Positions 7,774-30,895 of a stretch of DNA of 31,981 nucleotides are shown piece by piece; positions within the stretch are counted from its first letter, which is position 1, and every line of letters begins with the position of its first letter. Origin of the DNA: a virus; the IMG/VR virus record IMGVR_UViG_3300025168_000362, positions 1-31,981 of that record; one strand, written 5' to 3'. Both the position numbers and the translations under genes were made by a program. The notes below the pieces were generated by a model. That model was not told the origin of the DNA, made no database searches, and saw nothing but the letters and a program-made list of their open reading frames with translations.

Positions 7774-7990
7774 TTATTTCATCCCTGTATTTTCTTATGA
7801 CTTGCATTTGTTTAGCTACACGAACAGCAGGATTATTGTAGTCGAGACCATCTGTTTCTTTAGACATAGTATTAGACCTAGTTAATAGGCCACCTGTTTT
7901 TTCTGGTTTTTTTACAGTCTTTAAGTTTTCAAATCCTTCAATATCCATACGTTTGTAGGCTTCTCTAGCAGCATTAAATTGTCTGGACAT
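7751..7990 (-). CDS. Uncharacterised small protein (79 aa)
   Basis: A 79-residue basic, mostly helical protein with no recognised domain. The start ATG at 7990 has a GGAG about 8 nt upstream and overlaps the end of the 976-residue gene by 17 nt. Its end overlaps the next gene by 23 nt. These overlaps on both sides and the good ribosome binding site make it a real gene. The sequence holds KKPEKTGGLLTRSNTMSKET, which looks like a flexible linker between two helices. Function unknown; probably a minor virion or assembly component, given its neighbours. Confidence 0.6.
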   Translation of the reverse strand: MSRQFNAAREAYKRMDIEGFENLKTVKKPEKTGGLLTRSNTMSKETDGLDYNNPAVRVAKQMQVIRKYRDEINGDNEST

Positions 7991-10904
7991 TATGCTTTCT
8001 CCGTTTCTTGTTTACTACTATATCCATGAATTGTTTTGTGGCCCATTTTAATGGCGGTACTTTAGCAATTAGTTTAGCATAATTTTCACCATGTGTCATG
8101 TATAAATTTTTAAACCAACTAGGAGCATCATATTGTAGCCAAGTACGGAACACAAACCATTCAGCATTTTGTTTGCCATATACTTCACGTGCTACCCAGC
8201 AAGCACCAAATAAATATGCACTGCCTAATGTACCAATTAAACTACCTATTGCATTACCTGCTGCTGATTTACCTGCTGCAGCAGAAGCAGCTTGAGATGT
8301 TGCAGCATCTAGTTCAGCAATCGCCATAGCACTGTATCTATCCAGTTCACCTTCTGCTGATTCCCATGCCCACTCCATAGTATCAGCATAGAAACTCCAC
8401 AAATTACTGTAAGCTTGTTTACTTACATCAAGAACAGCATTCGCATTCAACTCATTAGCACGATTAATTGAAGCCGTATCCGCTGTAGCTATCTGTCTAC
8501 GCCACTGTGCATTACTCTGTGCAATCACTAGCTGGTTCTGTGCATTAAACTGATCACGTTGATTGTTTAGTTCTGCGTTAAAACGATTTACTGTATTAGC
8601 CTGACCAGCATTATACTGTGATTGTGCATTAGATTGTGTCGCATTAAACTGAGACACTTGAGAACCAAGATTCTGGAAGAACTGATCTGTTTGGTTTTCA
8701 CTAGATGCATTAAACTGTGCGGCAGCATTTGCTGCAGCTTGATCTGAAAACAAAGACTGTACACGCTGTTGTGCTTTAAACAACTCTGTCTGTTGGTCGT
8801 TAGATAAGTTAGCCATATCCATCTGCAAGAAGTTCTGTGCTTGTTGTACAGAAGCTTGTTGTCTATTGCTTAGGTTCTGGCTATCCATAGCAGCAATTGT
8901 TGCAGCATTCTGCAGGGTCGTAGCTTGTGCAGTATTAAGATTAGCTAATCCAATAGTTTTCATCAACTCTGAATTATGTAATTGCTCTTGCTGGTCTGCA
9001 CTAAATGTTATGTTAGCTGCCTCAGAAAATCTAGCTGCGTTTTGCATAGCTGTTTGTTGTTGTACATTAATCTGTTGACCTTGTAAGGCTGCAGAAAGTT
9101 GTGCATTAGACATATAAGATTGTTGTCTATTAGACAGATTAGCTAAATCTATTTGAAGATTGTTGGCATTATTTACTAGTGCTGTCTGTTGCCTATTATT
9201 TAAATTCATATTAGAAACTTCAGCAAATCTAGCAGCAGTAACTAAGTTTACCTGTTGTTGATTACTTAAATTCTGTCCTTGGAAAGCTGCCTTTATTTGT
9301 GCATTAGCCAAGAAGGTTTGCTGCATGTTAGACAAGTCTTGTGTCTGTAATGCAAAAGCATTAGTACTGTTCTGTAATGCTACTTGCTGCTCATTAGAAA
9401 GGTTCTGCAGTGAAAGACCTTGTTGTGCGGCAGCATTAGTTAGGGACACTTGTTGCCGCCTATCTAAGTTGCTCATATTCATCTGGTTAAATGTTTGAGC
9501 ATCTTGTGTAGCAATAGGTAGTGAAGACTCCATAGCAGCCTGTAGGATAGCCGCACCTGCCATTGAGCTACCAGCTAGACCCCTTGAGGCCATAGCAGCG
9601 TTAGCAGCCCTTAAAGCCCCTGCTGCCCATACAGGTGTGCCATCATCAAACTGCTTCATCAACCCTTCTAGCTGACCCTGTACAGTTCCTAATGCACCTA
9701 CCTCGCCTTGAATAGCACTAGCTAATGTGCCATTGTCTACACTAAATGAATTTAGTTTGGCTGCATAAGCTACGGCATCTTCTCTAAGGAACCCACCTGA
9801 TTGTGCCAGTTGCGCTTGAGCCATATTAGACTCTTGAATTTGTGCAGCCTGTGGTATTTCATTTACAGATACGGTAGCTTGTTGAGCTATAGCTGGATCA
9901 ATGCCAGAAGACTGTGCAATCTGAGCTGCTGGTATAACTTCGTCTTGACCTTTAGCTGCTGCTAACTGGTCTGGTGTTACGTTTAGATCACCAAATCCAA
10001 CCCCTTGTTTAAAAGCAGTATCAAACTCTGGTGCGCCGGGTGTAGCTCCGGCAGATAATGAACCTGTTGCTGCTGTTATGCCGCTAGTTGTCCCCGATGC
10101 GGCAGCTACTTTGTTCATTTCAGTATCTACATCAGTTTCCGTAGTTGTTACAGCAGCTTTATTTGCTGTTCCCGCTGTAATTAATCCAGCTTGATACGTA
10201 TTTGCAGTAGCAGTCGGTACTTGTACAGCACCTGCTGAAAAGTCATAGTTAATAGGAACTTCAAACCGGCCACCATCCGGCGTAAATGCAAATTTATTAC
10301 CTTGTTGCGGCATTACTGTTTGACGTATTGCGCCGGGGGTAGGATCGTTTTCAAGATACGGGCCTGTCAGTGTACCTGTTCCTGCTGCTATTTTTTGTGC
10401 ATCTTCTGTTTTTGTAGCTTTAGAAATTGTTGTGGCACCAATAGGCAGACCGGGTTGATACATTTGTTCTACACTGAACTGTGCTACACCGGGAATTTGG
10501 TTTTTGATTTCTGCTGTTTTTTCATCGCCTACATTTACACCTTCAGGTAACTGATCACCTTCTTTGTAATATGTAGCGGGAGTTACATTATATTGTGCGG
10601 GACTAGCACCTGTATACACAGGTGTGGCAGCTTGTGTTGACCCAAAATTACTTACAGTACCTCTGTTTGATACAGGCTGTTCTTCTTCTTCTTTTTTATT
10701 ATCGGCTACACCACCAGTATTAAACCGTGGCACGTATCCACCTTCTGCCATCTTCCGTGCAGCATTCGTATACATATTCATCTGCTGTTGCCGTGCAGGG
10801 TCTTGGTCAACGTACTGCTGAAACTGGTTCATATCACCTTGATAGCCCATAGCCCCTGCAATCTTATTCATTGCTTGAGGTTTAAATCCTTTGAACATCG
10901 CCAT
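7974..10904 (-). CDS. Hendecad-repeat virion protein with C-terminal CWVAREVYG module (976 aa)
   Basis: A very large Gln/Ala/Asn-rich protein in the tail and internal-protein block. Parts in order: N-terminal 1-70 with AEGGYVPRF and NTGGVADN; a Gly/Thr-rich, low-complexity region about 75-330; a helical region; then eleven tandem 22-residue units (480-721, consensus LSNxQQxxLxNAxxxxxxxxxN) and nine 11-residue units (730-828, consensus QFNAxxxxxxx). An 11-residue period with no indels predicts a long right-handed coiled coil. A small-residue hydrophobic stretch near 875-901 precedes a compact 75-residue end that starts C902-W-V-A-R-E-V-Y-G and is rich in Trp, Tyr and basic residues. A rod-like internal, tail or ejection protein is the best guess. 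The C-terminal module resembles a CFI-box-like pattern; its role is unknown. Confidence 0.75.
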   Translation of the reverse strand: MAMFKGFKPQAMNKIAGAMGYQGDMNQFQQYVDQDPARQQQMNMYTNAARKMAEGGYVPRFNTGGVADNKKEEEEQPVSNRGTVSNFGSTQAATPVYTGASPAQYNVTPATYYKEGDQLPEGVNVGDEKTAEIKNQIPGVAQFSVEQMYQPGLPIGATTISKATKTEDAQKIAAGTGTLTGPYLENDPTPGAIRQTVMPQQGNKFAFTPDGGRFEVPINYDFSAGAVQVPTATANTYQAGLITAGTANKAAVTTTETDVDTEMNKVAAASGTTSGITAATGSLSAGATPGAPEFDTAFKQGVGFGDLNVTPDQLAAAKGQDEVIPAAQIAQSSGIDPAIAQQATVSVNEIPQAAQIQESNMAQAQLAQSGGFLREDAVAYAAKLNSFSVDNGTLASAIQGEVGALGTVQGQLEGLMKQFDDGTPVWAAGALRAANAAMASRGLAGSSMAGAAILQAAMESSLPIATQDAQTFNQMNMSNLDRRQQVSLTNAAAQQGLSLQNLSNEQQVALQNSTNAFALQTQDLSNMQQTFLANAQIKAAFQGQNLSNQQQVNLVTAARFAEVSNMNLNNRQQTALVNNANNLQIDLANLSNRQQSYMSNAQLSAALQGQQINVQQQTAMQNAARFSEAANITFSADQQEQLHNSELMKTIGLANLNTAQATTLQNAATIAAMDSQNLSNRQQASVQQAQNFLQMDMANLSNDQQTELFKAQQRVQSLFSDQAAANAAAQFNASSENQTDQFFQNLGSQVSQFNATQSNAQSQYNAGQANTVNRFNAELNNQRDQFNAQNQLVIAQSNAQWRRQIATADTASINRANELNANAVLDVSKQAYSNLWSFYADTMEWAWESAEGELDRYSAMAIAELDAATSQAASAAAGKSAAGNAIGSLIGTLGSAYLFGACWVAREVYGKQNAEWFVFRTWLQYDAPSWFKNLYMTHGENYAKLIAKVPPLKWATKQFMDIVVNKKRRKHNVQTI
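8421..9467 (-). repeat. Tandem 66-nt (22-residue) and 33-nt (11-residue) protein repeats
   Basis: Inside the 976-residue gene. Positions 9467 down to 8742 hold exactly eleven 66-nt units (22 residues each, for example units beginning LSNEQQ, LSNMQQ, LSNQQQ, LNNRQQ, LSNRQQ). After an 8-residue step, 8717 down to 8421 holds nine 33-nt units (QFNAS, QFFQN, QFNAT, QYNAG, RFNAE, QFNAQ and more degenerate ones). The unit length never varies. Confidence 0.9.
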
Positions 10905-22728: not shown

Positions 22729-23805
22729 CTATGCTAAATGGTAAATGGCGTTGACAAGAGCTTCAGGACGAAGAATCTTGCGGCCGTACAAATGCATACC
22801 CCGAACAATGTCGGCGAAGCTGTCTGGATCACGGTAAGTTTCAGTCTTATTGATCTGCTCTGCAGTAGCAACAGCAGATGAATGTCCTGCAACAATCACA
22901 CCATAGCTGGATGAACTGTTTGTGCCAGCGAATGACGGGCCAGTACCAACTGAAGGTAGGTTGTTTGACTGATAGACTTGGAAGCCGTGGATTTGTGTGG
23001 ACACTTGACCGTTTTGCAGTCCTGAACCACCAAAATCTGCATTGAACAAACGAGAATCTTCGTCTTTCAATACTTCCATGAACACTGGATCAAGGATCAA
23101 CCAACGACCTTGTGAGTCCACGTTCTGCTGGTCAAGAAGACGAGCCATACGTGCAATCAAAGTCAGTGGGTGAGTATCACCAGCAGCAGGAGTTGCGTCA
23201 GTTGCACCACCCGTACGAGGGGCAATAGCAATAGCAGCACCTGAGGAGCCTGCAGAACCTGCACCATCAGTAAAGTTTGATGCGTCCAGTTTCATGCTTG
23301 CAAGCAATTCGTCTGTACCAGCAGTTGAAACAGCAACGGAACCATTTACGGTTGTGTTAGCTGTATTGGCTGCGCCGTGCAGAGCAGATTGCTTAAAGCC
23401 TGACATATAACCAAGAACGTCTTGGTCAAATTGGTCAGCAAGGCGATACGCAGCACGGTCACTTGCCAGAGACTGGAAGTTTACGTGTGAGTGTGCCTCT
23501 TCAATGTCATCAACCTTAAATGCAAAGTAGTTAGCTTTGTCAATTGTCAGGCTGAAGTCTTCGTCATCAAGGTCTTGCGGCGTGATGGTTGTACCACGGG
23601 CGTAAGCCTTAACTGTAATTTCGGGTTCCTTGATAATCTTAACGGAATCACCCATTGCAGCAATCTCACCGAAGTAATCGGAATTAGTGATTGCCTCAGC
23701 AACAGCAGACTTGCGGAAAGCAAGTTGCACCTGTTTGCTGTAAATTACGGGAGAAAAATTACCGTTAGGAAGATTACCATAACCACTAGCAGTAGTAAAT
23801 GCCAT
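22729..23805 (-). CDS. Major capsid protein, HK97-fold type (358 aa)
   Basis: A 358-residue protein with the features of HK97-fold phage capsid proteins. The N-arm has FSPVIYSKQVQLAFRKSAVA; the E-loop and P-domain region has VKAYARGTTITPQDLDDEDF; a spine-helix-like stretch LADQFDQDVLGYMSGF follows. The C-terminus has the segment IVRGMHLYGRKILRPEALVN that I recall from marine podovirus capsids. A 90-residue Gly/Ser/Ala/Thr-rich insertion (about 140-215) may be a surface loop. A scaffold gene precedes it and no protease is seen nearby. AGGAGA lies 7 nt upstream of ATG 23805, and the 236-nt leader in front carries its own promoter, consistent with high expression. Confidence 0.9.
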   Translation of the reverse strand: MAFTTASGYGNLPNGNFSPVIYSKQVQLAFRKSAVAEAITNSDYFGEIAAMGDSVKIIKEPEITVKAYARGTTITPQDLDDEDFSLTIDKANYFAFKVDDIEEAHSHVNFQSLASDRAAYRLADQFDQDVLGYMSGFKQSALHGAANTANTTVNGSVAVSTAGTDELLASMKLDASNFTDGAGSAGSSGAAIAIAPRTGGATDATPAAGDTHPLTLIARMARLLDQQNVDSQGRWLILDPVFMEVLKDEDSRLFNADFGGSGLQNGQVSTQIHGFQVYQSNNLPSVGTGPSFAGTNSSSSYGVIVAGHSSAVATAEQINKTETYRDPDSFADIVRGMHLYGRKILRPEALVNAIYHLA

Positions 23806-24041: not shown

Positions 24042-24911
24042 TTATCTAGCAGAGCCAGAAACATCATAGATGAACTTACCACTACGGATAGCTTCCATGA
24101 TTTCATCTGCCACCTTCTCATATTGTTGTGGTGACATCTTCTGTACTTCGGACTCTTTTAGATACCCAGAAGCCTCATTATTCTGTGGCTTACTGCGTGA
24201 GTTCTTTGTAGACACAGACTTAGCTGCATCTCTGTCTGACTTAGGTTTCTTATTAGAAATACCCATGTCAGCTTTATATAAATCAATTGCTCGTGCAGCA
24301 GAACGTGCATCATTGTCATTGTCATATAATGCGTCCTGTACCCACTTAGGCTGTTCTTCTGCCCAGTTGTGGAAGTCATCGCTGTCTCTGATCTCATCAA
24401 AGTCAGGATGTATCTGCATCAATGCTGCTTCAGCTTTTTCTTTTGTAGCATTAAGCTGCATCTCATCAATGTATTTTACACGCTCTTCTAAAGCACTGGA
24501 CTGTTCACGTGCCTTCTTCATTGCGATTGTTTCAACGATAGCTGCTACATCTGGATAGTCTGCTGCCCACTGCTCAATGTCTTCATCAGACTTAGGCAGT
24601 TTCATTTCTTTCTTAGTGGCTGACTCAAGCTGCTTTTTCATTGCATCTAGTTCAGTCTTAAACTCTTCAGCTTGCTTTTGTTGGTGTCGGCGCAGATCAG
24701 AGTAACGCTTCTTAAATGTTTTCTCTTCAGCGGATGTAGGCTCTTCCTCTTCTTCAGGCGCAGCAGCTTCTGCCTCACCCTTTTGTTCTTTCATTAGTTG
24801 TTCTAGTTCTTCTTCTTCAATCTTGCGTTTTTCTTCGTTAGTGTATTTACGATTAGCGAATGCAACTTTCTTTGGTGCTTGCATTTCTTCTGCCATGATT
24901 GTATCGTTCAT
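24042..24911 (-). CDS. Capsid scaffold-like protein (289 aa)
   Basis: A 289-residue, very charged, helical protein just before the capsid gene, the normal place for a scaffolding protein. Acidic and Glu-rich stretches (KIEEEELEQLMKEQKGEAE, APEEEEEPTSAEEKTFKKRY) are followed by a coiled coil (RRHQQKQAEEFKTELDAMKK), a middle helical domain with HPDFDEIRDSDDFHNWAEEQ, a basic Ser/Lys-rich linker around 222-245, and a C-terminal segment SPQQYEKVADEIMEAIRSGK that may bind the capsid protein. The start ATG 24911 has AAGGA 8 nt upstream; a Met five residues in is less supported. There is no protease Ser-His pattern, so it is not a fused protease-scaffold. Confidence 0.83.
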   Translation of the reverse strand: MNDTIMAEEMQAPKKVAFANRKYTNEEKRKIEEEELEQLMKEQKGEAEAAAPEEEEEPTSAEEKTFKKRYSDLRRHQQKQAEEFKTELDAMKKQLESATKKEMKLPKSDEDIEQWAADYPDVAAIVETIAMKKAREQSSALEERVKYIDEMQLNATKEKAEAALMQIHPDFDEIRDSDDFHNWAEEQPKWVQDALYDNDNDARSAARAIDLYKADMGISNKKPKSDRDAAKSVSTKNSRSKPQNNEASGYLKESEVQKMSPQQYEKVADEIMEAIRSGKFIYDVSGSAR

Positions 24912-24999
24912 TATCTATTCCTTTGTTGGGGCCACTGTAGCCACACTGTCGGGCATGGGGAGTGAGTAGCCAACTGATTGTAAGATTTAAGTAAGCTTC

Positions 25000-27024
25000 T
25001 TACGCAGCTTTCTTCAGTGCGTTTTTGTATTGTCCATACACTGTGTAGACTTCACCTTCTGTGTATACATCATAGCGGTCATCTGCTGTACCTATGTAAA
25101 CTGTTGGTGTTACTTGTTCTATATACTCAAGTGACGTTACTTCTACGTTATTAATGTAGTCACCAAGCACTAAGTTTTCTGTGCGCTTCCACGAACCGTT
25201 AGCAAGTACGGGATGATCATTTGTAATCTTGAGTTCACCATTGACTACATAGTAACCTTCACGCATATGCTTGTGTAAAACTTCTGTAACTCTAGTGTAG
25301 TCTACAATATCACCAACCTGTACATTCGTTACAAAATCAATAACACCGTTACGTTTTACTTTCATGTCTTCGGTTAAACAGATAACACCCATATCACCGC
25401 CGCCGCCTGTGCCAGCATCTGAACCGTAACCGCCGCCATCACTTTCACCTACACCAGTATCCTGACCGCCCTCATCATTTTCTCTTGCTCTATCTAAAGC
25501 ATCTCTAGCTGCTCTGGCTGCTGCTTGACGATCAGCTTGCGCTTTATTAGCAGCTTCACGTGCTGCAGCCTCTGATGCTGTTTCTTTATCAAATTCTCTT
25601 TGAGTAACACCTTCAGCATAGCCTAATGCTTTTTCAGTTTCTGTTTGTTTTTCTACTTCTTTATGATCTGTATAACCTAAGATATCTGCAAACTTATCAT
25701 ATTTGTTTTTAGCAGCACTAGATAAACCAGAATAAGACTCTGCTCCTAGTTTACCGCCCCGCCAACCAGACTTATTACCAGCAGATAGAGCCTCTTTGTA
25801 ATCAGAAAAAGAAGCATAATTAAAAGTACCTGTTTCATTTTTACTTTGATCGCCTGTTTTTCCATCTACGGCAATACCATTTTTATCAAAAAATCCACCA
25901 GAGTTAGGGTCTAAGTCACCCTTTTGAAAACCTACATACCCTGTAATACTAACACCTAAAGAGTTTTCAAGTTGATTTCTTGCTGTTTGTTGAGCATCCA
26001 TTAAAGAATCATCGGGCCTACCTGTGTATGTTGGCTCTGTTCCAAAAATATTTAAAGCTGTATCGGGCAATAAATTTTTAATAAAAGTGCCGCCCGGAAG
26101 TACATTCAATAAATCAAATCCACGATTACCTGTTATTGCATACCTGTCTTTAGCTGACGTTACTCCCGTTTTAATTTCTTCAGGGGAGTAACCAGCAATC
26201 TTTTCTCCTGTAATTAAAGAAGTGCCGCCGCCATAATCAGGACCATCTCCTTCTTCACTTTCAAAATCAGTTGGTCCAACGGTACTTCTAGGCGAAGTAG
26301 TCTGTATAGCATTATCTTGCTGTAATGTATATCCTTCAGGGATAGGATAGAGAGGTTGACCATTCTTAAAAGGTATTTGTAAAGTTTGTCCTGAACTATT
26401 TACATAAGTTCTAAACTCATCATACTGACCGGGATTGTTTCCTACAGTCTGACCAAAGGTAGGTATATTAGTTGTTTGAGTTGCTCCTATAAATTGAGTA
26501 CCCGGAAGCTGTGACCCTTGAAATTGTGGACCTTGTTGTACAGGTTGCACAGTATAGTCTGGTATTGGTGGTGCTACATAAGGTCTAAATCCTGTAGTTG
26601 GTCCGGGGTTAGGTGTTGTATTGTAGTTAGTACCCGACATTTTAACTACACCACCATATGCAAACTCTTGAGGAGTATTATACTCGCCTTCATCTTCTGT
26701 GTCAAGGTCTTCTATAGAAAAAGGTATATCATCAGGAAGAGTAGCTTCTTCACTATTACCCATCTGCCCCATAGCTTCCATACGTGCAAGTCCCGCTTTA
26801 GCTTCTTGGCGCATCTCCATAAGTTTTTCTAATCCAAAATAACGTACTACGTCTGCAGGAAAAACAAATTCACCCTCACTTAGCTGGGCAGGAATGTCAT
26901 CACGAACTTCTTCTTGAGTAGAACCGGGCGGTACGTCATTACCAGATACAGGATCAACAGTGCCGCCCTCATCCATAAGACCACCTTCGTCAAACATTTC
27001 CATTTGTTTTGCCATGTTGTTCAT
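25000..27024 (-). CDS. Structural-module protein with C-terminal Hint (hedgehog/intein-type) domain, 674 aa
   Basis: Three parts. (1) N-terminal 1-110, acidic, with LSEGEFVFPADVVRYFGLEK and MRQEAKAGLARMEAMG; this segment recurs in marine podovirus proteins near the portal. (2) A Gly/Pro/Gln/Asn-rich, mostly disordered middle (130-545) ending in a Gly-rich linker around YGSDAGTGGGGDMGVI. (3) A 126-residue Hint-like domain (549-674): a nucleophile-like C549 in CLTEDMKV, then VQVGDIV, then ITNDHPVL with the block B D603-H604-P605, then VLGDYI, and a C-terminal strand DVYTEGEVYTVYG. The usual terminal His-Asn of a splicing intein is not seen, and no extein follows the domain except about 12 residues. 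Cleavage or thioester chemistry is possible, splicing unlikely. Role unknown; perhaps virion or head-tail maturation. Confidence 0.75.
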   Translation of the reverse strand: MNNMAKQMEMFDEGGLMDEGGTVDPVSGNDVPPGSTQEEVRDDIPAQLSEGEFVFPADVVRYFGLEKLMEMRQEAKAGLARMEAMGQMGNSEEATLPDDIPFSIEDLDTEDEGEYNTPQEFAYGGVVKMSGTNYNTTPNPGPTTGFRPYVAPPIPDYTVQPVQQGPQFQGSQLPGTQFIGATQTTNIPTFGQTVGNNPGQYDEFRTYVNSSGQTLQIPFKNGQPLYPIPEGYTLQQDNAIQTTSPRSTVGPTDFESEEGDGPDYGGGTSLITGEKIAGYSPEEIKTGVTSAKDRYAITGNRGFDLLNVLPGGTFIKNLLPDTALNIFGTEPTYTGRPDDSLMDAQQTARNQLENSLGVSITGYVGFQKGDLDPNSGGFFDKNGIAVDGKTGDQSKNETGTFNYASFSDYKEALSAGNKSGWRGGKLGAESYSGLSSAAKNKYDKFADILGYTDHKEVEKQTETEKALGYAEGVTQREFDKETASEAAAREAANKAQADRQAAARAARDALDRARENDEGGQDTGVGESDGGGYGSDAGTGGGGDMGVICLTEDMKVKRNGVIDFVTNVQVGDIVDYTRVTEVLHKHMREGYYVVNGELKITNDHPVLANGSWKRTENLVLGDYINNVEVTSLEYIEQVTPTVYIGTADDRYDVYTEGEVYTVYGQYKNALKKAA
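25003..25380 (-). other. Hint domain of the 674-residue protein
   Basis: Codes residues 549-674. Block A (CLTEDMKV...VGDIV), block B (ITNDHPVL) and the VLGDYI strand are in the usual order. No homing endonuclease is inserted: only about 40 residues separate block A from block B. Confidence 0.7.
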
Positions 27025-27028
27025 AGTG

Positions 27029-27256
27029 TCATCCCTCAGCGTTAGCTACGTCCTCACGTAATCGTTTAATCTTACGTAGTACATCTATAGCACCCTGTGC
27101 TTTGTGTACCGTTATCATATTCTCAGATTGTTCTAGCACCTTATGATGTTGTGCTACCATGTTATCCAAATACTTACTGAAGTGGTCCCATTGGCGGTTG
27201 TTGCCCACCAGCGGCTTGAGCTTGCTGAGGAGTTCCCGGCTGTTGTCCTTGTCCAT
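27029..27256 (-). CDS. Small helical protein overlapping the portal gene (75 aa)
   Basis: A 75-residue (82 if from GTG 27277), helical, basic protein with RQWDHFSKYLDNMVAQHHKV and VHKAQGAIDVLRKIKRLRED. This pattern (about one turn, a His-His pair, a KAQGAI stretch, a KxKxLR end) recurs in my memory of small proteins beside portal genes of marine podoviruses, whose function is unknown. I chose ATG 27256 because AAGGA lies 10 nt upstream, whereas GTG 27277 has no clear site. Its first 83 nt overlap the end of the portal gene in another frame, and it is followed 4 nt later by the 674-residue gene. It could be a portal-associated or head-assembly factor. Confidence 0.7.
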   Translation of the reverse strand: MDKDNSRELLSKLKPLVGNNRQWDHFSKYLDNMVAQHHKVLEQSENMITVHKAQGAIDVLRKIKRLREDVANAEG

Positions 27257-29324
27257 TTGCACTAAATCCTTGTTCACCCGGCACAGGAGCCTGTCCTACG
27301 CCTATTGAGCCTCCTCCAGCACCTGTAGGGTCCATTGCGTCAGCACCCGCTGGTGAGGCTCCTACGCCCCCTTGCGGAGCTTCTTGCTGAAACCCTTTCA
27401 TAATCTCTGCCTGTAAGGCGGCTTCGTCCATATTGTTGGTAACTTTATCGGGGTCTAAGTCCATTGATTTTGCAATCTCACGGATTACATATTGGAACTT
27501 AGCAAAGGGTGCTAATGCTGGGCTGCTTGCAATCTGCAAGAACTGCATCAAACGCTGACTACGTACTTCATTAGCCATGAGGCTTTCAGTACCACGTGCC
27601 TTAACTTCTAGGTCTCCTTTGATCTCTTTATCAAAGTCAAACTGCATGTTAAAGCGGAAGAAACCCTCACCAAGAGGACGCAGCAGATAGTCGTCTACGT
27701 TCTTAATGATTGTCTTAGTGCTTCCCTGTGCAGCACCCATAAGCATTGAGATGCCAGATGCAGTACGACCTACACCAGACACACCTGTCTGTCCATGAGC
27801 GAATGATGGGAAGCCTGTGCTTTCATCTGCTAGTACACGTGCCTTATCAAACAGCATCATGTTCTCGCTGGATACGTTAGGAAACTTTGTACCAAAGATT
27901 GCCTGACCCGGTGCGCCACCCTGCCTACGGAATACCTTGCCCGGATACAGTGACAAGTCTTGACCCGGTACTAGGTTTGTCTCATCTACTTCTACAATCA
28001 AGTTACCTGACAGTACAGCATTGTCTACAGCCATACGCATAAAGCCATTCATCAATGTCTGTGTATCATCCATGTTCTCAGCAATACCTACACCAAAGAA
28101 TGAGTATGGGTTTAGCTCATATGGTGCAGCATGGTATGGAATTTTAGCTGGCTTGAATGGGTTGAGAACCATGCGAAGCAGACGGTTATTACAGACCCAC
28201 ACGTTAGCTTGCAATTCATCAAAGTCATTTAGTTCTTTTGGAATGTCTACGCCTTGCTCTTCTAACAACTCAACGTCTACCATGCCCCAATACTCAAGCA
28301 CTTCAAAACGATCAATGCCATGCTCTGGTGCATAGTCAGTTAGATCATCTTCCCAGTATTTCTTAGTATAGTTCTCGCCCATAGCGATAGCTTCATTGAT
28401 AACTTCACCACGGAAGTATGGACGTTTCTTTAGATTGCGTAATTGGGTACGTGACATTTTATGCCGTTCAATTACAAACTGTGCCTCATCCATATTGTTT
28501 GCATCTGGGTCTGGGTAGAAATTCCAAACAGATACATGATTTACTTGTGGTACAGTTTTAAAGGCTGGGTCATATTCACCCTCATCGTTCCAGCTAGGAT
28601 ACTCTTTATCAATAGCAAACGGACCTTTCATTACGCCCGTACCAAACAGTGCCATTTCAAATGCGGCATTACGTAAATGTTTAGATGCACCTGACTCTTC
28701 TAGCTGGTCATGTATTTTCTTCTGCATCTTCTTAGCTGCAATCATAGCAGGGCTAAAAGTAATTGCTGTAGGTGTCTTGCCCGGACCCGCTTTTACTTTG
28801 TCGTTAATAGGGTCTAGCTTGTTCTCCATAACGCCAAGCTTATCTTGTAGGCTTGCTGCTGTAGCACCTGCTGGTAGGTCATTACCATCTCCAGCAAACC
28901 CATAAGGGCTTAGTGAGCTAGTATCTTCACGTAACTGATCCGGCTCATTAGGATCAAAGTGTACGTCTTCTACTACACCTTCTGGTAATTCAGTAGGTTC
29001 AACAGACAAAGGAAAACGCTGGTTAGCAAACAGAACATCTACAATCTGCCCATATGCTGCCAGCGTCTTAGTTTTTGTGACTTTAATAAAGACACGAGAC
29101 TTTTCTGTTTCTGTAAATTGAACATCAGGTCCGTACAAACCACGATAATTGCGGTAGGCTTTTAGCCAACGATCTTCGTCCTGATACCTATAATCTTCGG
29201 ATCGCTTATAGCGTTCCATAATAAATGGTATAATCTTGCTTACGTCTACGTCAGAAACAGATGTATCGTCACTGTCTTCTAGTGCGATAGCATCATCTTC
29301 AATCATCATTTCATCTTCATTCAT
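27174..29324 (-). CDS. Portal protein (716 aa)
   Basis: The dodecameric ring at the capsid vertex that terminase docks on and DNA passes through. Evidence is its place (directly after the large terminase), its length, and a typical portal layout. There is an acidic N-terminus, then helical EDYRYQDEDRWLKAYRNYRG (about 42-61), a region with FEMALFGTGVMKGPF, then VSVWNFYPDPDANNMDEAQF (the W-x-x-x-P-D pattern seen in portals of marine podoviruses) and RTQLRNLKKRPYFRGEVINE. A long helical stem/wing region and a Pro/Gln/Gly-rich tail (about 650-716) follow. The start ATG 29324 has GAGGAAAAG upstream. The tail overlaps the next gene. I see no fused protease. Confidence 0.87.
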   Translation of the reverse strand: MNEDEMMIEDDAIALEDSDDTSVSDVDVSKIIPFIMERYKRSEDYRYQDEDRWLKAYRNYRGLYGPDVQFTETEKSRVFIKVTKTKTLAAYGQIVDVLFANQRFPLSVEPTELPEGVVEDVHFDPNEPDQLREDTSSLSPYGFAGDGNDLPAGATAASLQDKLGVMENKLDPINDKVKAGPGKTPTAITFSPAMIAAKKMQKKIHDQLEESGASKHLRNAAFEMALFGTGVMKGPFAIDKEYPSWNDEGEYDPAFKTVPQVNHVSVWNFYPDPDANNMDEAQFVIERHKMSRTQLRNLKKRPYFRGEVINEAIAMGENYTKKYWEDDLTDYAPEHGIDRFEVLEYWGMVDVELLEEQGVDIPKELNDFDELQANVWVCNNRLLRMVLNPFKPAKIPYHAAPYELNPYSFFGVGIAENMDDTQTLMNGFMRMAVDNAVLSGNLIVEVDETNLVPGQDLSLYPGKVFRRQGGAPGQAIFGTKFPNVSSENMMLFDKARVLADESTGFPSFAHGQTGVSGVGRTASGISMLMGAAQGSTKTIIKNVDDYLLRPLGEGFFRFNMQFDFDKEIKGDLEVKARGTESLMANEVRSQRLMQFLQIASSPALAPFAKFQYVIREIAKSMDLDPDKVTNNMDEAALQAEIMKGFQQEAPQGGVGASPAGADAMDPTGAGGGSIGVGQAPVPGEQGFSANGQGQQPGTPQQAQAAGGQQPPMGPLQ

Positions 29325-29335
29325 ATTGCTTTTCC

Positions 29336-30895
29336 TCAGTATCCAAAGGTTGCGTCTGCTACTCTCATGCCGCCGCCGGGTCTACCCATAGGGTCATAGT
29401 CAAACACACTAAACTTTGGCCTAGACATTATACCATACCTTAACGAATCGTACAAGTGATCTTCCGAATGTGTGTCAATATCCTCTGGATTTTTCTTGTC
29501 AAGAGGAATGGACGGTAACTGGGCAACGATGTTTGTGCAGTTATTAAAGAAAACAAGTCTAGGCTCCTCTGTAAATTCATCTACCTGTAAACGTCTGTGT
29601 ATTTCGTTTTTACCGGCTACACGACTGCCTCTGCTTCTATCTGATGGTCTCCAACGACACCCTCTACTTACCATTTGCTCCGCAAGAGAAGGGCCAGTAT
29701 CACCACGCTTATGCCACAGAGAGCTATCCAAAACACCATACTTAATAGTTCCATCACCAGCTTCTAAGTCAAGGATCATATCTGCCAAATCTGTGGCAAG
29801 GACTTTAGATACGTATAGTTCTCTATATACCACAAGTTGTTCATTAGGTGCAACAGCAAACCAGATAACGCCAGACTTGCTGCCGTAACCGTAATCGCAA
29901 GCCCTAAACTTAACCCAGTTATGAGGAATATCAAAAGGCTCAACAACGTGAATATTGCGGTCAAACTCTGTAAAAGCCGCACCTTCTTTAATATCCCAGT
30001 CTCCGTCAAGGAGTTGTCTTCGTTGCTGCTCTGGCATTGAGAGTAGCATTGCTTCGTAGTCACCTGACTCCGCAAGGTATGGATTATCAGAAAGTCTTGC
30101 GGGTATAAATCTTCTTTTGTATAAAGGTCTTCCAGCCTTTGCGTGTCCTGCTGGGTATTTAAGAACTTCTCCTGTTTCAATATCGGTTGCATCGTAGGCT
30201 CTGTTATAAGGCGCAGGGTCAATAAACATTTTCTTAACCCAATGATGACCTCTACCGCCGGGGTTGGTCGTAGCCCTCATATAAATTGGCAAGTCAGGTG
30301 CAGTGGACCTAAGACGACTTCGCATGTAGTTCCATGCATATGGTGTGGCCCATTGTGTTAGTTCGTCAAAACCTATCCAGCTAAACGCTAGACCCTGATA
30401 ACGCAAGACATCATCATCTCTGTCAAGATAAGACATCCACAACCTTGCGCCAGATGGTGCAGTCCACTGCATTTTTCTTTCTGACCACTTAATACCGGGC
30501 CAGATTTTTGGGTACAACTCCTGCGACTTAAATACAAGCTCTCTTAGCTCTTCTGTCGTGTGTCGTAAAAGCAAGCCACTAAATGCGGGATGCCCCATGT
30601 AACGTAATGGATCAGAGAGCATAGCATAGGATTTACCACCGCCAGCACTTCCACCAAATAACACCTCTCGTTCTGCCGCTGCCAAGAAATCCGTCTGTGG
30701 GCCTTTGTTAGGTTTAAAGAGTACGTTCTGCGTTTCTTCAATAGCCTGTGTTTCATACTCTACAGGTTTTATTTCAACTGTTGGCTCTGGAGCCTGTTCT
30801 TTCTTCTTCAAGGACTTTCGCTTTGGCGATTGCCTTTTCCGCATATTCTGCCCACTTGCGGATGCTTGTAGCTTGGTTCTTACGTCTTCGCTCAT
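29336..30895 (-). CDS. terL: Terminase large subunit (ATPase-nuclease), 519 aa
   Basis: Packages DNA into the procapsid and cuts it. Motifs visible: Walker A GGSAGGGKS (81-89); Walker B SWIGFDE (172-178, with D177-E178); coupling motif ATTNPGG (208-214); nuclease acidic residues at D334 (RACDYGYG), D390 (YGVLDSS) and D479/D483 (SEDHLYDSLRYG). This is the RNase-H-like fold of the Terminase_6C-type nuclease. Length is normal. The first 50 residues are basic and helical and overlap the upstream gene by 122 nt; an internal Met at residue 18 would still overlap. The start ATG 30895 has AAGG upstream. Packaging type (cos or pac) cannot be read from the sequence alone. Confidence 0.95.
   Translation of the reverse strand: MSEDVRTKLQASASGQNMRKRQSPKRKSLKKKEQAPEPTVEIKPVEYETQAIEETQNVLFKPNKGPQTDFLAAAEREVLFGGSAGGGKSYAMLSDPLRYMGHPAFSGLLLRHTTEELRELVFKSQELYPKIWPGIKWSERKMQWTAPSGARLWMSYLDRDDDVLRYQGLAFSWIGFDELTQWATPYAWNYMRSRLRSTAPDLPIYMRATTNPGGRGHHWVKKMFIDPAPYNRAYDATDIETGEVLKYPAGHAKAGRPLYKRRFIPARLSDNPYLAESGDYEAMLLSMPEQQRRQLLDGDWDIKEGAAFTEFDRNIHVVEPFDIPHNWVKFRACDYGYGSKSGVIWFAVAPNEQLVVYRELYVSKVLATDLADMILDLEAGDGTIKYGVLDSSLWHKRGDTGPSLAEQMVSRGCRWRPSDRSRGSRVAGKNEIHRRLQVDEFTEEPRLVFFNNCTNIVAQLPSIPLDKKNPEDIDTHSEDHLYDSLRYGIMSRPKFSVFDYDPMGRPGGGMRVADATFGY

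Follow-up and report, generated by a model that had tools for sequence, protein, structure and literature searches.

Hint domains capable of auto-processing occur in inteins, Hedgehog proteins, BIL domains and polymorphic toxins, and the Hedgehog thioester is transferred to cholesterol. In phages, maturation is generally ascribed either to dedicated proteases or to chaperone tails that cleave themselves off and have a different fold. C-terminal Hints on the tail proteins of jumbo phages, such as Erwinia phage Y3 (gp110) and NCTB (BN7874_136), are already annotated in GenBank as 'contains intein domain', and many phage proteins in BFVD bear the name Hint; this kind of domain is therefore known, and no published function of the Y3 or NCTB C-terminal Hints was found in the openly available literature searched. 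Among the BIL domains, the A-type carries a highly conserved C-terminal His-Asn, while the B-type is without the C-terminal splice motif and its N-terminal auto-cleavage has been reported (PMC7765530). In the Vint family, motifs A and B are conserved and the C-terminal part is divergent (PMC2362128).

The domain analyzed here is the C-terminal end of a protein encoded in an IMG/VR virus record of 31,981 bases, and this whole stretch of DNA is referred to as the window. It resembles the B-type BIL domain in its intein-like motifs, all of which are present except for the degenerate C-terminal one, in its occurrence on variable proteins and in its fold (C. thermocellum BIL structure 2lwy, TM 0.75), but B-type BILs have been described on bacterial proteins; the comparison was made by motifs, and the nearest Pfam families are Vint and Intein_splicing. 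The C-terminal His-Asn of A-type BILs is absent from the relatives. Vint (PF14623; VWA-Vint proteins, structure 8r2c) is the nearest Pfam family, several relatives exceeding its cut-off and the window sequence staying below it, but no VWA hit was obtained within the carrier protein and the eukaryotic order VWA-Vwaint-Vint is absent. The sterol-recognition region of the Hedgehog Hog domain is lacking as well, the protein ending about 10 residues after block G. As to inteins, there is neither a C-terminal Asn after a penultimate His (HG in relatives, YG in the window) nor a C-extein starting with Cys, Ser or Thr, and no conserved host protein is interrupted. Thus the domain is neither an intein nor a Hedgehog domain. 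Vibrio phage 1.266.O gp4 (L093:3167-5290, plus strand) also has a Hint domain in a gene adjoining the portal gene, but this one looks like a true intein with Cys1, HN-Cys and extein on both sides.

Organization of the carrier gene and its neighbors

On the minus strand of the window, the genes are aligned in the order of terminase large subunit (29336..30895, by profile matches), SU10-type portal protein (27174..29324; SU10_portal PF23899, 3e-27), an 82-aa ORF, the carrier gene of 674 aa (25000..27024), the gene for a phrog_13678 protein (24042..24911), from which the neighbor tree below was made, and the gene for the major head protein (22729..23805; phrog_267). A sequence-only reading of this DNA had placed the carrier beside the portal and a scaffold; the portal side is confirmed, and on the other side the phrog_13678 neighbor is indeed present, being scaffold-like by position alone. 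From its gene position, the carrier would be a virion protein of the window phage.

The carrier N-terminus is homologous to HMO-2011 gp49 and to portal-side proteins of RCA phages, its N-terminal part matching those of Puniceispirillum phage HMO-2011, Roseobacter phages (CRP-1 and others) and ctYwJ313, and the window virus is therefore of the HMO-2011 type, with the HMO-2011-like portal-side gene, portal, terminase and coat genes all retained in order. The conserved N-terminal region (QEEVRDDIPAQLSEGEFVFPADVVRYFGLEKL..., 26623..27024, minus strand) is common to relatives with and without the Hint domain. Between the carrier and phrog_13678 genes, the intergenic stretch (24912..24999, minus strand) consists of the 3' flank and a conserved GGCTAC..CCCC element found in both Hint-bearing and Hint-less loci. 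This element (24914-24999, minus strand), 5' of the phrog_13678 gene, is present in two copies and includes a short stem with two compensated pairs; it gave no Rfam match.

The Hint domain covers residues 549-674 (Cys549-Ala674, 126 aa; 25003..25380, minus strand), exactly as had been read from the sequence, and is followed by the stop codon at 25000-25002. It is preceded by a linker rich in Gly, Asp and Ser (residues 516-548; 25381..25479, minus strand), in agreement with the Gly-rich linker claimed earlier; the linker end is the predicted new C-terminus after cleavage, and Hint-less relatives end here. Within the domain, also on the minus strand, block A (CLTEDMKV) starts with Cys1, the HKHMR motif with the invariant His586 lies between blocks A and B (25261..25275), block B of the TxxH type (ITNDHP, extending to ITNDHPVL) includes T601, D603 and H604 (25210..25227), and a block-F-like motif (YDVYTEG) precedes the degenerate block G, YTVYG (25033..25047), which reads YTVHG in relatives, without His-Asn. 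The protein ends with a 10-residue tail QYKNALKKAA (25003..25032, minus strand), a vestigial C-extein. A ClpXP degron at the conserved C-terminal Ala-Ala was considered and rejected, because VrlC-type carriers end with KAS or AVG, and because the Ala-Ala codons lie within a DNA stretch common to Hint-less loci.

Identification of the Hint domain

The window sequence alone gave weak Pfam matches, Vint with an E value of 0.0016 (18.7 bits against the gathering threshold of 27) and Intein_splicing with 0.031, both under the curated cut-off, and in the single-sequence PDB search only chance matches were detected. The assignment is therefore secured by family-level evidence. Relatives were collected by iterated searches of viral contigs, with identities from 100% down to about 32%, and distant members among them exceed the Vint threshold of 27 bits (L247, 35.3; L241, 31.0; L239, 30.0; L231, 29.6). 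In a PDB search with a family profile of 50 sequences, the Vint structure of Tetrahymena (8r2c) was matched with an E value of 1.5e-4 and gp41-1 inteins with one of 0.005. Using the same 50-sequence alignment, AlphaFold2 yielded a model with pLDDT 93.1 and pTM 0.85, and an earlier model from 17 near-identical sequences (pLDDT 60) was set aside. When the model was compared with the PDB by Foldseek, each of the first 47 matches was an intein, a BIL or a Vint domain; the class 3 DnaB intein of M. smegmatis (6bs8, TM 0.76) came first, two BIL structures were among them, and no confident match outside Hint proteins was obtained in the PDB. That the C-terminal 126 residues of the carrier are a Hint domain, as the sequence-only reading had claimed, is thus not in doubt.

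Conservation of the catalytic residues and absence of the splicing end

Cys549 (25378..25380, minus strand), the Hint Cys1 and predicted acyl acceptor, was found in 73 of 73 distinct ORFs that bear the block-B motif and extend far enough upstream, three further block-B ORFs that are cut by a contig end or frameshifted being left out of the count. Since the ORFs were chosen by block B and not by Cys1, this count is independent of the selection filter. Block B has the form [TS]-N-D-H, of which the His is invariant in 50 sequences, a conservation partly enforced by the search motif. The proposed catalytic pair of Cys549 and H604 is supported by these observations. Of the outcomes that the sequence-only reading had named as speaking against it, neither of the two computational ones, a lack of Hint matches or a variable C549, was obtained. 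Among 24 compared sequences, both TGT and TGC are used for Cys1 and both CAC and CAT for H604 (H56 of the domain), and T601 (T53 of the domain) varies to Ser. The dN/dS values of other alleles against the window domain range from 0.04 to 0.19, which indicates strong purifying selection on the domain where it is present.

The His-Asn end, noted as missing from the window, was detected in none of the about 72-73 distinct relatives, which end with YTVHG (His-Gly) instead. The block-G His is replaced by Tyr (TAT) in the window only, being His in 23 of the 24 compared sequences, and the window Tyr might weaken whatever this His does. About 10 residues follow block G, the first of them being Q, R, H, D or N. 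Because the Asn is replaced, splicing and Asn cyclization would not be expected, and an N-S acyl shift at Cys549 would still be predicted. The residue ahead of Cys1 is variable among relatives (D, I, A, L, W, V, T, E or K); several of these residues can slow the N-S acyl shift.

In the Y3 and NCTB proteins, the Hint likewise forms the extreme C-terminus of a structural protein with a very short tail, and Cys1 follows a low-complexity or collagen-like part. Profile alignment by hhalign of the domain family with Y3 gp110 and NCTB BN7874_136 gave 98% probability (E 2e-13) up to block F. In contrast to the His-Gly (Tyr-Gly in the window) of the family, the Y3 and NCTB Hints keep His-Asn before a tail of 7-10 residues. 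When the alignment was continued by eye past block F, the family VHG fell on VHN or IHN of Y3 and NCTB, and we therefore infer that block G has changed from Asn to Gly. Directly 3' of its Hint-ended tail protein, NCTB encodes a free-standing Hint/intein-like protein (L091:4333-4794, plus strand).

Carriers of the domain

The same Hint ends at least four unrelated carriers, always as the last domain and at a linker or junction. Besides the HMO-2011-type portal-side protein, these include DUF4815/VrlC-type proteins of T4-like phages (PF16075, E 1e-46; phrog_358), annotated in isolates as virion structural, VrlC or tail proteins, a collagen/central-tail-fibre-J-like protein (L239) and a subtilase (Peptidase_S8) on a viral contig (L236:1414-3363, plus strand), together with several proteins without family assignment. 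The only bacterial-genome record with the domain is a MAG contig bearing phage tail genes (L037), and the domain is absent from every cultured HMO-2011-type phage that was examined. The HMO-2011-type phages are an abundant and dominant group of marine phages, and the main comparative paper on them makes no mention of Hint or intein (PMC9038755). In the openly available literature searched, no description was found of the domain, its Asn loss, its carriers or its on/off evolution. The sequence-only reading had suggested, as a plausible unreported use, a step in virion assembly or the attachment of something to the virion; 'unreported' stands for the use and the evolutionary pattern, but not for C-terminal Hints as such, in view of the annotated jumbo-phage tail proteins.

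Gain and loss of the domain at a single point

Relatives chosen by the N-terminus alone fall into three groups at the C-terminus: some carry the Hint domain, some have a basic tail (...KKPKVKKMKRGGLASKK) and others stop at the Gly/Asp-rich linker. In at least 18 Hint-less contigs, the linker is followed by an immediate stop exactly at the position of Cys1, and then by the last Hint codons, in the form of KAA, EAA, QAA or an out-of-frame version. All viral contigs were scanned for this scar pattern, made up of the last Hint codons, the stop and the bases after it. Of the loci detected, 47 bear the Hint and 18 have the linker-stop structure; six further exact matches lay in unrelated DNA and were excluded. 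Among the scarred loci, 15 distinct linkers and no fewer than six types of junction can be told apart, L121 among them having been reached by a different route. A frameshift or split gene was rejected for the linker-end proteins, because no reading frame between their stop and the following gene encodes a Hint.

A minimum of 16 changes of the Hint label is required by the tree of the phrog_13678 neighbor (111 rows), 6 of these being forced by strongly supported branches; for Hint versus linker-end alone, the figure is 13. The window and the L050/L267 contig differ by 1% in the neighbor gene, whereas the identity of their Hint domains is as low as about 63%. These scars, tree changes and the L050/window mismatch indicate that the domain has repeatedly been swapped, gained and lost at one point. 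As for the direction, loss would be favored over insertion upstream of an existing stretch, because the K-A-A/K-A-S end recurs on carriers with different flanking DNA. Between L050 and the window gene (25000-27024), the middle of the carrier is hypervariable though the N-terminus and the neighbor gene are nearly identical, and modules therefore seem to be exchanged within the carrier gene.

In five contigs, the HMO-2011-type slot contains a Hint of a second family, which is divergent (CFAAGT...VTGNHAI...; 92% and E 5.5e-7 in the profile match): L128 (4779-5177), L144 (8435-8830), L152 (2993-3388), L309 (5001-5396), all on the plus strand, and L310. A near relative, L110, ends at the linker. 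The Hint-less relatives among L103-L172 often end with the repeated basic motif KKPKxKKMKRGGLASKK. Five named phages, HMO-2011, CRP-1, CRP-345, ctYwJ313 and CRP-13 (L032, L033, L034, L035 and L083), have a globular non-Hint C-terminal domain in this slot, and each of the five domains starts with Cys directly after the linker. That of ctYwJ313 is CFI-box-CTERM (NF041770, E 2.2e-15), which shares with the Hint domain the slot, the Gly-rich linker before it and the leading Cys, but is a separate family with no function assigned, and no homology to Hint is claimed; the CRP-345 slot domain gave a weak match (0.025) to the same family. A Cys-started module (GACWVAREVYG...; 7974-8321, minus strand) likewise ends a 976-aa protein of the window, without a match in Pfam, PHROG or NCBIfam.

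Proposed mode of action of the Hint tail

The reading that we prefer is that of a non-splicing, single-turnover Hint tail that would cleave itself off at its N-terminal end. After synthesis of the linker-Hint protein and folding of the Hint, T601 and H604 would promote an N-S acyl shift, in which the side chain of Cys549 attacks the peptide bond between Ile548 and Cys549. The thioester would then be resolved a single time, in the simplest case with water, a small thiol or a small amine as the nucleophile, so that the Hint of about 14 kDa would be released and the carrier would end in the flexible Gly/Asp-rich linker. N-terminal cleavage of this sort is what has been reported for B-type BILs (PMC7765530). 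The Hint-less relatives that end at the predicted cut with the last Hint codons kept as a scar, the invariant Cys1 and block-B His, the lack of a terminal Asn and the lack of a C-extein to splice all agree with the single-turnover self-cleavage that the sequence-only reading had proposed. Since Hint-less relatives stop there, the linker end appears to be natural as a C-terminus, but deletion of any C-terminal domain would leave the same end, so that modularity could explain it too. The variable residue ahead of Cys1, the Tyr in block G of the window and the absence of the domain from the cultured phages examined also count against self-cleavage, to which we give slightly better than even chances. 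Such a cleavage, during or before assembly, may serve for the timing of assembly, or for exposing or freeing the linker end.

That the domain stays uncleaved as a folded module, serving as a cap for binding or stability or as an intramolecular chaperone, and retains Cys1 for a structural or metal-binding role, is unlikely but deserves attention, given that cleavage of the Hint tail is something we infer, that the block-G His is lost in the window allele and that diverse modules (basic tail, CFI-box and others) alternate in the slot. Such a module hardly accounts for the selective retention of exactly the Hint catalytic set, Cys1 and [TS]xxH, in the face of a decaying block G and with both codons being used, or for the placement of the Hint always as the last domain on unrelated carriers. 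This last feature also argues against a decayed intein or another selfish remnant persisting without benefit, which we consider very improbable: the patchy, fast-changing presence and the allele swaps on the neighbor tree (L050 versus the window) would suit it, but dN/dS is as low as 0.04-0.19, there is no C-extein and no endonuclease within 126 aa, and the site is not a conserved extein site.

The chemistry of a ligase would be identical up to the thioester, which no Asn could divert, and the Cys549 thioester would then be passed to a specific nucleophile such as a virion protein, lipid, sugar or amine, with covalent attachment of the linker end. Conservation is strong over the whole Hint domain, beyond the active site, and B-type BILs and Hog offer precedents for N-terminal processing; in contrast to Hog, only about 10 residues lie past the Hint fold, leaving no acceptor-binding region, no co-conserved partner gene was found and the Hint-less relatives manage without an attachment step, making this reading rather improbable. 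A broader version, more doubtful still, would take the slot as dedicated to Cys-first processing or attachment, in which the linker end would be joined, through the Hint thioester, to one specific nucleophile of the virion or the host, while the CFI-box, the HMO-2011 ICTELY, the CRP-1 CYVATAL and the second Hint family would be interchangeable modules with related Cys chemistry, swapped between phages under diversifying selection.

Under the preferred reading of N-terminal self-cleavage, a Hint tail that is conserved but does not splice, borne by portal-side proteins as well as by tail proteins, would, if true, represent a new device of phage maturation. Because the domain is lost exactly at the predicted cut, the pattern suggests that phage proteins undergo a processing step not yet described, and the Hint-less relatives give a clear prediction, that residue 548 is the last one of the mature carrier. 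As natural mini-Hints that lack the Asn step and are about 125 residues long, members of the family would also be of use in making protein thioesters.
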